From positions 124,001 through 188,000 of the forward strand of contig NZ_RBCI01000004.1 in NCBI RefSeq assembly GCF_003628535.1: DNA of 64,000 bases, written 5' to 3'. Below are positions 17,976 to 49,440 of the stretch, one piece after another; position 1 is the stretch's first letter, and each line of letters starts with the position of its first letter. This stretch comes from Flavisolibacter nicotianae (GTDB lineage Bacteria > Bacteroidota > Bacteroidia > Chitinophagales > Chitinophagaceae). The notes beneath the pieces are model-generated. The model worked only from the letters and a program-made list of their open reading frames with translations. It ran no database searches and had not been told where the DNA came from. The position numbers and the translations under genes are program-made.

Positions 17976-19334
17976 CTATGCCAGCGCCTGGATAATGTCG
18001 TACTTGGTCACAATATGATAGTTGCCGCTATCGTCTTTTGCCAGCACGGCACCGTTTTCCTTGTTGATCAAGGTGCTCAGTTTTTCCACCGGTGTATCGA
18101 ATGCCACGATGGGAAAATTCTTTTCCATGATCCTATCGATTCGCTCTGTTTTGATATCGGGATTGGTAAAGACTTTTTGAAACAACCCGCCTTCGCTGAT
18201 CGAACCAATCATTTCGCCATCAGCCTTTACAACCGGTATGTGTTCAATATCGTATTTGCGCATCAGGTCAACAGCCTCAGACACCGATTGCGTCGACTCG
18301 ACGGTGATCAACCGCTGGCGACCCCGTGAATTAATGACATCCTTGAAACATTTGACATCAAAGAAACCCCGCTCTGCCATCCATTGATCGTTGTACACTT
18401 TGGCCACATACCGGCTTCCGTGGTCGCAAAGCAACACGACAACCACGTCGTCTTTTTTCAGTTTGTCTTTCAGTTGGAACAATCCCTGTAGCACACTGCC
18501 GGAGCTGTATCCGCAAAACAGGCCTTCTTCTTTGGCCAGTTTGCGGGCCATCACCGCACCATCCTTGTCTGTCACCTGTTCAAAATAGTCGATGACACTC
18601 ATGTCATAGTTCTTAGGTACGAAGTCTTCGCCAAAACCTTCCGAGATATAGGGCCGCACTTCGTTCATATCGATTTCGCCGGTACGGAAGTATTTTGTCA
18701 GCAAGGAGCCGACAACGTCAATCGCCCAGACCTGTATATCCTTGTTTTGTTCTTTCAGGTACTGCGCCGCCCCGGTAACTGTGCCGCCCGTTCCGGCCGT
18801 TGTCACAAAATGCGTTATGCGACCATCGGTCTGCTGCCAGAGTTCCGGACCCGTCGTTTCGTAGTGTGCCAGGCGGTTGGCCAAATTATCGTACTGGTTA
18901 AAGAAAAATGAATTGGGAATTTCGCGGCTAAGGCGGGCTGCAACAGAATAATAACTCCGCGGATCATCGGGCTCCACATTGGTTGGACAAACGATCACCT
19001 CCGCTCCAAGAGCCCGGAGGATGTCCACTTTTGATTGCGACTGTTTATCGGTAGTCGTAAAAATACAACGATAACCTTTCACCACTGCTGCCAGTGCCAG
19101 TCCCATTCCTGTATTACCGGATGTACATTCAATGATGGTACCGCCAGGTTTTAATTTGCCTTCCTGTTCGGCCACTTCTACCATCTTCAGTGCCATGCGG
19201 TCTTTGGTGGAGTTGCCGGGGTTGAAATATTCGACCTTTGCATAAACCTCGCACGGCAGATCTTTGACGATCTTGTTCAGCCGTATCAGCGGTGTGTTGC
19301 CGATTGTCTCGAGGATGTTGTTTTTTACGTCCAT
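17976..19334 (-). CDS. Cystathionine beta-synthase-like PLP enzyme with C-terminal CBS domain pair
   Basis: A fold-type II PLP enzyme that condenses serine (or O-acetylserine) with homocysteine or sulfide. Residues 1-320 are catalytic: NTPLIRLNKI, NPGNSTKDRMALKM with the PLP Lys, CTSGNTGMGLALAA, TTAGTGGTVTGAAQYLK (phosphate loop) and FCGYSSGSVLQG. Residues about 330-452 form two CBS motifs (RGRQRLITVESTQSVSEAVDLM...IPVVKADGEMIGSI and VAFDTPVEKLSTLI...YHIVTKYDIIQAL), as in eukaryotic-type CBS, where they regulate activity. I start at 19334 (MDVKNNILETIGNTP), because the 49 codons upstream are not family-like and overlap hutU. A TACTTTTG element is at 19355-19362. The enzyme suggests reverse trans-sulfuration, which is of interest given the damaged trans-sulfuration gene near 49.3 kb. 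Confidence 0.92.
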   Translation of the reverse strand: MDVKNNILETIGNTPLIRLNKIVKDLPCEVYAKVEYFNPGNSTKDRMALKMVEVAEQEGKLKPGGTIIECTSGNTGMGLALAAVVKGYRCIFTTTDKQSQSKVDILRALGAEVIVCPTNVEPDDPRSYYSVAARLSREIPNSFFFNQYDNLANRLAHYETTGPELWQQTDGRITHFVTTAGTGGTVTGAAQYLKEQNKDIQVWAIDVVGSLLTKYFRTGEIDMNEVRPYISEGFGEDFVPKNYDMSVIDYFEQVTDKDGAVMARKLAKEEGLFCGYSSGSVLQGLFQLKDKLKKDDVVVVLLCDHGSRYVAKVYNDQWMAERGFFDVKCFKDVINSRGRQRLITVESTQSVSEAVDLMRKYDIEHIPVVKADGEMIGSISEGGLFQKVFTNPDIKTERIDRIMEKNFPIVAFDTPVEKLSTLINKENGAVLAKDDSGNYHIVTKYDIIQALA

Positions 19335-47931: not shown

Positions 47932-49197
47932 TTAACTCAAAGTAACCCCTGCTAGTTGCAAACTCACTTTTTTGATCGATTGCGCCACCCGGCTTTCTTT
48001 TTCGATCAGCGCTTCGGGCTGCAAAATCACCGAAACGGATCGATCGGCAAACCAGCTCGCCGAGCGAAGCTTATCGGCATGAATGACACCGCGGATATAT
48101 TGGCGTTCGGCAGTGCTGTGGTATTCGGTCACTTCTTCAAAATCCCATTTGTTCACGTCTGTCCAGGCCGAAAATGAGACAAACACATCCAGGTAAAAAT
48201 TGTGTGTCAGGGCATTTTTTTCGGGCCGTTTCAGTTTTTTGTATTCGTACTGGTAACGGTAGCTGAAGGCAGAAATATCCGAGATCACAGCCGAAGATGT
48301 AGGGTAGCGTCCAGCGCCTTTGCCGGAAAAGAATTGCTTGTCGGCCAGTTTGCTTTCGATTGTAACACCATTGTATTCGTTGGCCACATGGAACAACTGG
48401 CTGTCGGGCCGCACAAACTGCGGCAGCACAAAAGCGGCCACCTTTCCGTCGGCCAGTTTCCGCGCCTGTGCCACCAGCTTGATGCGCAGGCCTTTTTCGC
48501 TGGCATAAGCCGCATCTTTCGCATGCAGCCGGGTAATACCCTGCCGCAGAAAATGGCCAGGCTCTGTAACGATACCATAGGCATGCGCCAAAAGGATGGT
48601 GAGCTTGTTGGCGGCGTCGAAACCTTCCACATCCAGTGAGGGATTGCTCTCGGCAAAACCTTTTTGCTGCGCCTCCAATAAAGCTTCCGTATAGGTTAGG
48701 CCTTCATTCAGCCGCGTCAGGATATAATTGGTGGAACCATTAACAATCCCGGAAATGCTTTGCAACAGGTCGTTGTCGAAATATTCTTCCAGGTTGCGGA
48801 TGACCGGTATACTGCCGCAAACGGCTGCTTCGTACAGGAAGGAAACATTGTGTTCTTCCTGCAGGCGAATCAATTCGGGCAGGTGCTCGGCGATCAGCTT
48901 TTTGTTGGCACTGATGACCGATTTACCACGTGTGAAAGCGGTCGTCACAATTTTATACGCTTCCTCCGCATCGTCGATCAGTTCGACAATCAGGTTGATT
49001 TGCGGGTCGTTGAGAAGTTCCTCGTAATCGGTGGTGAACAGGTCGGCAGGGGCATCCCGTTTTTTCTCCGGGTGCTTGATACAGATTTTTTTGATTGTTG
49101 CATGAAGAGAAGGTGTTTGCCGAAGCACATGAAAAATACCTTCACCGACAACACCAAAGCCAAATAATCCGATTGTCAGGGGTTGATGTTCGCTCAT
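47932..49197 (-). CDS. hom: Homoserine dehydrogenase
   Basis: Hom reduces aspartate semialdehyde to homoserine, the branch point to threonine and methionine. The N-terminal NAD(P)-binding domain begins LTIGLFGFGVVGEGIFHVL (GxGxxG-type); the catalytic part shows VISANKKLIAEHL, FLYEAAVCGSIPVIRNL, ISGIVNGSTNYILTRL (conserved NGTTN-like segment), AEANPSLDVEGFDAANKLTILL-like sequence and LVAQARKLADGKV. An extra C-terminal domain (about residues 320-421) is present, but it lacks an obvious ACT motif. The start is 12 bases past the stop of a metB/metZ remnant, and both lie downstream of a SAM-I riboswitch, so hom expression should be shut off when S-adenosylmethionine is plentiful. Confidence 0.95.
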   Translation of the reverse strand: MSEHQPLTIGLFGFGVVGEGIFHVLRQTPSLHATIKKICIKHPEKKRDAPADLFTTDYEELLNDPQINLIVELIDDAEEAYKIVTTAFTRGKSVISANKKLIAEHLPELIRLQEEHNVSFLYEAAVCGSIPVIRNLEEYFDNDLLQSISGIVNGSTNYILTRLNEGLTYTEALLEAQQKGFAESNPSLDVEGFDAANKLTILLAHAYGIVTEPGHFLRQGITRLHAKDAAYASEKGLRIKLVAQARKLADGKVAAFVLPQFVRPDSQLFHVANEYNGVTIESKLADKQFFSGKGAGRYPTSSAVISDISAFSYRYQYEYKKLKRPEKNALTHNFYLDVFVSFSAWTDVNKWDFEEVTEYHSTAERQYIRGVIHADKLRSASWFADRSVSVILQPEALIEKESRVAQSIKKVSLQLAGVTLS

Positions 49198-49209
49198 TCG
49201 AATATTGTT

Positions 49210-49440
49210 TTATACTGTTTTCAATTTTGTTTGTTGAATAGCTGGAAACGAGACTTCCAAGGCATTCACCCGCCACTTTTCCGCTGGAATGGATTTCTGT
49301 GTCATAGCCAGGTGGCTTACAAGGCTATTCATGCCGGCAGTTTCCTGCACGAAAGTGGAGCCAAGGTAAATTGGTGCGGCAGCCGTACCTGTTTGCGGAT
49401 CGACCGGAATGCTTCGTAAAATTCTTATTGTACTGCTCAT
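49210..49440 (-). pseudogene. Internally deleted remnant of a PLP trans-sulfuration enzyme (metB/metZ type)
   Basis: A 76-codon frame. Residues 1-38 (MSSTIRILRSIPVDPQTGTA, then AAPIYLGSTFVQETAGMN) match the N-terminal end of the Cys/Met metabolism PLP enzymes (O-succinyl- or O-acetylhomoserine sulfhydrylase, cystathionine gamma-synthase), where TGA..PPIYQTSTF is the hallmark. Residues 39-59 (SLVSHLAMTQKSIPAEKWRV) match the C-terminal SL(V)xHPAxMTHxxIPxEER segment of the same enzymes, after which the frame runs out. About 300 residues, with the PLP Lys, are missing, and the join is in frame. It lies between the SAM-I riboswitch and hom, the expected place for a methionine biosynthesis gene. 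It cannot be an active enzyme; it may still be translated. Confidence 0.8.

Follow-up and report, generated by a model that had tools for sequence, protein, structure and literature searches.

Between a SAM-I riboswitch and hom in Flavisolibacter nicotianae: the probable decayed remnant of a SAM-regulated cystathionine gamma-synthase/lyase-type gene

What is a 76-codon open frame doing between a SAM-I riboswitch and hom, and why has it stayed open? This question is raised by a locus in a 64,000-nucleotide stretch of Flavisolibacter nicotianae DNA (C24:124001-188000 of a 6.09 Mb genome in 70 contigs), called the window below, where riboswitch, terminator-like stem, short frame and hom follow one another on the minus strand (Table 1). 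The frame runs from an ATG at 49440-49438 to a TAA at 49212-49210, and 12 bases (49209-49198) separate this stop codon from the hom ATG at 49197, exactly as the initial annotation had it when it described an intact frame ending 12 bases before hom. The aptamer scores 77.8 bits with the RF00162 covariance model (gathering score 44.4), and hom scores 320.2 bits with NF004976 (cut-off 205) and 174.5 bits with PF00742. With a probability of about 0.82, we read the frame as the decayed, enzymatically dead remainder of a SAM-regulated gene of cystathionine gamma-synthase/lyase type.

Table 1. Features of the riboswitch-hom locus, in window positions
Feature	Position	Strand	Remarks
SAM-I (S-box) riboswitch aptamer	49735-49619	-	RF00162, full model 1-108
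Stem-loop then T run, probable intrinsic terminator of the riboswitch	49582-49555	-	12 pairs
76-codon open frame; probable relic of a metB-type, SAM-linked gene for a Cys/Met PLP enzyme	49440-49210	-	
First relic segment (residues 1-37; aligns with 1-37 of the 388-residue protein)	49330..49440	-	290-codon loss after
Second relic segment (residues 38-57; aligns with ~328-348)	49270..49329	-	one codon missing
Third relic segment (residues 58-76; aligns with 370-388, the exact C-terminus)	49213..49269	-	21 codons missing before
hom, homoserine dehydrogenase, intact	49197-47932	-	421 aa; NF004976 and PF00742

A full-length counterpart in close relatives, which the initial annotation had anticipated, is indeed found. 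In the three nearest Flavisolibacter genomes compared (G014, G006 and G003, the first two being the nearest; values below follow this order), a whole 388-codon gene stands at the same place between the SAM-I riboswitch and a hom that is 87, 87 and 83% identical to that of the window. Residues 1-37 of the short frame align with residues 1-37 of these proteins at scores of 116, 126 and 114, the best of 1000 shuffles reaching 44, 42 and 44, and residues 38-57 align with residues ~328-348 at 57, 57 and 58 (best of 1000 shuffles 35, 43 and 39). The last 19 residues form the weaker part, equalled in a local match by 101, 2 and 3 of 1000 shuffles. Placed without gaps on the exact C-terminus they are equalled by 23, 0 and 0 of 20000 shuffles, and for each relative no other 19-residue window fits as well as this one, in DNA as well as in protein. 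Homology to the SAM-linked metB-type group of PF01053 is carried by these three segments, which match in order despite the absence of a PF01053 match in the Pfam scan of the frame. Together with the riboswitch match, this upholds the remnant of a metB-type PLP enzyme that had first been proposed here. Comparison of the 76 residues with family profiles, put forward at the same time, bore fruit in part: NCBIfam models matched the N-terminal part weakly (E 0.011 and 0.012) and Pfam gave nothing, so that neither collection yielded a significant family match. In a search of the genus genomes, the relic's N-terminal part matched the G014 gene (E 3.5e-7), and the C-terminal part was not among the matches listed.

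The alignments point to three in-frame deletions, of 290, 1 and 21 codons, whose edges are uncertain by about one codon. This reading draws on the pairwise alignment with G006 and on the segment shuffle tests; pairwise alignments with G014 and G003 fragment the gaps further, partly into lengths not divisible by three, and a multiple alignment misplaced the relic's C-terminal part beside the relatives' N-terminal region. The roughly 300 missing residues noted initially are thus right as a sum (388-76 = 312), but fall into three gaps instead of one. The relic lacks a complete catalytic domain, the relatives' residues 38-327 being gone, a stretch within which we take the PLP-binding lysine to lie. 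As the assembly is a draft of 70 contigs, one might think of an assembly or PCR artefact that joined the ends of an intact gene. Such a join, however, sits badly with three separate gaps and relic-specific substitutions in all three parts, with the relic occurring just once in the genome, and with the finding that no full gene of the same group lies elsewhere in it, where the best match is a 56% paralogue. We hold an artefact to be extremely unlikely.

As to the kind of enzyme, the full-length G014 protein comes nearest to cystathionine gamma-lyase/gamma-synthase models of NCBIfam (506 bits versus 594 for the best, 500.5 versus 513 for another) and falls below the curated cut-off in all of the best 25 of 42 rows. 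These nearest models suggest a cystathionine gamma-synthase/lyase-type gene.

Changes on the window's side were counted by codon position at sites where G014 and G006 agree. These counts replace an earlier one of 25 changed and 3 silent, which was biased because silent sites rarely agree among the relatives. In the relic, 15/67, 11/71 and 17/50 sites have changed at positions 1, 2 and 3, and in hom 32/388, 20/403 and 88/232. Positions 1 and 2 together have thus changed about three times as often in the relic (26/138) as in hom (52/791; Fisher p 1.6e-5). In the N-terminal part, 16/70 such sites have changed, versus 4/70 in the whole G003 gene (p 0.007), and these positions are not distinguishable from position 3 there (8/26, p 0.44). 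The C-terminal part displays no rise (10/66 in the relic, 9/66 in the whole G003 gene), and over the entire relic positions 1 and 2 remain slower than position 3 (26/138 versus 17/50, p 0.048). Relaxed constraint is therefore clear only for the N-terminal part and for the relic as compared with hom. Given the raised change at positions 1 and 2, the gene must have died well before the present, possibly, at a rough guess, around the middle of the branch. The recent deletion that was initially considered is contradicted by this rise and by the three gaps, and we reject a recent single event.

A hom tree with 19 rows groups the window's genome with G014 and G006 (support 100/98), which makes loss of the gene on its own branch the simplest reading. 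The common ancestor with the nearest relatives would have carried the gene between the SAM-I riboswitch and hom; in the window's lineage the gene would then have lost the 290, 1 and 21 codons and drifted, with riboswitch, terminator and hom staying whole. Like a pseudogene or gene relic formed by internal deletion, the frame has lost its catalytic core and its coding positions change faster. Unlike such a relic, it has kept its reading frame across all three gaps, with the ancestral start and stop codons at its ends, which is evidence against free decay. The relic is real, stands in a known kind of operon and is ordinary in kind; the kept frame is a mild question.

Upstream, a terminator scan alone gives no evidence, its one stem comparing with an average of 1.4 in shuffled sequences. 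Yet the 5' arm of the terminator stem has an alternative partner in the 3' strand of P1, a pairing that would form an antiterminator; these two alternative leader structures have a z of -2.97 (2/200 shuffles fold equally well), and the terminator sequence is kept in G014, G006 and G003. Past the terminator, 26/61 comparable columns of the untranslated leader differ, in an alignment that is itself uncertain. The aptamer and its probable terminator have been retained, now leading to hom alone. By analogy with SAM-I riboswitches in general, and from the pairing seen, low SAM would favour antitermination and transcription through the relic into hom, and high SAM would bring about termination, with hom alone under the riboswitch. 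Two SAM-I riboswitches were found in this genome, with 150 of 570 candidates scored, one of them before the relic and hom. The second (L045:4473-9654, C24) precedes a run of genes that, judged by their protein sequences, are putatively of sulfate-assimilation type. Between the terminator and the relic, an upstream frame of about a dozen codons was noticed by eye (ATG 49475; 49475-49438, minus strand); its TGA overlaps the relic's ATG (ATGA), probably by chance.

The dependence on another methionine route that the initial annotation had foreseen finds its genes in the genome. MetX (PRK00175, 350 versus a cut-off of 331) adjoins a MetZ-type gene on C69, as it does by position in G006, G014 and G003, and MetH lies on C2 (1213.5 bits, cut-off 1010.85). 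Four full PF01053 genes are present, named here after their nearest models: one exceeds the PRK07811 cystathionine gamma-synthase cut-off (535.7 versus 513), one is nearest to methionine gamma-lyase models, the MetZ-type gene is nearest to O-succinylhomoserine sulfhydrylase (515 versus a cut-off of 522), and one is nearest to a racemase model. Given MetX with its MetZ-type neighbour, the MetH gene and the four full PF01053 genes, methionine synthesis need not have suffered, and its loss is not supported. The loss of the gene was probably tolerated, since homocysteine could be made via MetX and the MetZ-type sulfhydrylase and methionine via MetH, and since a second cystathionine gamma-synthase/lyase-type gene is kept. 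In G014 and G006 there seems to be a further, longer metY-type gene, deduced from score and split matches (G014:C49:283446, G006:C1:54508), which was not seen in the family search of the window's genome.

A CBS-type gene at 17976-19334 on the minus strand (TIGR01137, 490.8 bits, cut-off 510.25) had led to the idea of reverse sulfur flow in connection with the loss. This link finds no support, as 17/18 genus genomes carry the CBS-type gene whether or not they have the SAM-linked one; the one lacking a match is G010, which is 62% complete. Reverse flow is possible chemistry, not tied to the disappearance of the SAM-linked gene, and is not supported as its cause.

Why, then, is the frame still open? 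Selection might have kept it for translation, with ribosomes holding the transcript open (no Rho-type polarity) or handing over to hom, so that being read would matter and the amino acids little. Three gaps that are all multiples of three have a chance of 1/27 if independent, and in simulations that began from the majority of the relatives' codons matching the relic, start and frame survived 20, 30 and 40 random changes in 0.45, 0.32 and 0.25 of the runs. Start, stop and the short spacing to hom are kept as well (12 bases here; 10, 9 and 7 in the relatives), and so is the slower change at positions 1 and 2 across a relic whose N-terminal amino acids are relaxed. The deletions, however, need less luck than this implies: 8-bp direct repeats, likely deletion edges, lie in the same frame in 22/30, 14/16 and 26/42 cases in the three relatives' genes, so in-frame loss is partly expected. 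One such repeat, GGCGTGAA, stands at both edges of the 290-codon gap in G014 and not in G006 or G003, which makes short repeats as the cause of that gap suggestive at most. At loci without the gene, hom follows the riboswitch directly (13/63 rows of the survey below) and there requires no leader frame. A hom start sequestered and opened by upstream translation was rejected, as folding around that start is no stronger than in shuffled sequences (z -0.05). Finally, it was by being open that the frame drew attention, which is a selection bias, and it is seen in one genome only. We estimate that without selection an open frame would be seen in one to a few per cent of cases, before allowing for this bias. 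Altogether, selection for translation is possible and the data hint at it weakly; that a defunct enzyme gene now serves as a translated spacer under riboswitch control, with the frame conserved and the peptide not, we consider unlikely. Were it true, the locus would be a testable example of selection that acts on the reading of a frame and not on its product.

That the 76-residue peptide itself works, as a small protein or leader peptide, is more doubtful still. The open frame with its ancestral start and stop would suit it; residues of the N-terminal part that the three relatives share have changed, however, for example in the YQTST stretch, the lack of a significant family match counts against it too, and the shortened form was seen in none of the other genomes among the 18 of the genus. 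We rate a functional peptide as very improbable.

Two described systems come close to the arrangement under the decayed-gene reading. For the ppe2 B12 switch, translation of an upstream ORF is reported to be essential for the downstream gene (PMC11260477); riboswitch, short open frame and downstream gene recur here, with the difference that our frame is a relic whose translation, and any need of hom for it, are hypothetical. The SAM-II riboswitch of metA is reported to act on translation at a distance (PMC9373788). It shares with our locus a SAM switch before a methionine gene and intervening sequence up to the working start codon, but belongs to another riboswitch class and phylum and is not reported to have a gene relic in between. 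The mRNAs of the phylum studied here are reported to go naturally without Shine-Dalgarno sequences (PMC6847099). A literature search returned no papers on a SAM riboswitch with homoserine dehydrogenase in Bacteroidetes or with cystathionine in Bacteroidota, and wider searches returned nothing on this case among the matches listed (in one, the best 8 of 953).

We placed the locus among others with a covariance model built from 12 riboswitches and run on 75 loci; L065 and L066 (repeats of L046 and L047), more distant loci and other short or repeated loci were set aside, and L173-L178 were unused. From 66 matches we removed L067 and L096 (repeats of L049 and L064), L099 (cut off) and L045 (this genome's second riboswitch); together with the window, this makes 63 rows. 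Directly behind the riboswitch comes a metB-type gene in 41 rows and hom in 13; the remaining rows begin with a longer metY-type gene (7), metX (1) or, in the window alone, the relic. These counts are not natural frequencies, given that loci were chosen by hom and some by close pattern matches. The window thus shares aptamer, gene order and strand with the SAM-I-led methionine operons of Chitinophagaceae and their kin, in which a metB-type gene precedes hom, but has the 76-codon relic in place of that first gene.

Within the genus, a gene 72-100% identical to that of G014 occurs in 7/18 genomes (G014, G006, G003, G013, G001, G015, G009); in 10/18, the window's included, the best match is a paralogue at 56-59%, and in G010 it is one at 41%. 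Several of the genomes lacking the gene are incomplete, 5/11 of them also lacking a close hom match (G002, G010, G011, G016, G017). The riboswitch stands directly before hom in G005, G008, G012 and G004 (in the last, hom is partly on the contig), and the genus genome search gave no close copy of the SAM-linked gene in G007. On the hom tree, its presence takes 7 changes, of which starred branches demand at least 4, and clusters no more strongly than shuffled labels do, a pattern of repeated loss or also of regain by transfer; this tree need not be the species tree, with G005 among the outgroups and G009 on a long branch. With the whole gene in relatives and riboswitch-hom in other lineages, the window appears to hold the intermediate stage of a SAM-regulated gene caught leaving its operon.

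Two further observations came from the survey. L114:4825-6968 belongs to a metagenome record that bears the title Chitinophaga pinensis; its metB-type gene and its hom both align as two separate pieces, as though their frames were broken, which may be sequencing error. In the Taibaiella-type loci L064 and L090, another hom lies less than 800 bases beyond the first, with 39% and 41% identity to the query.
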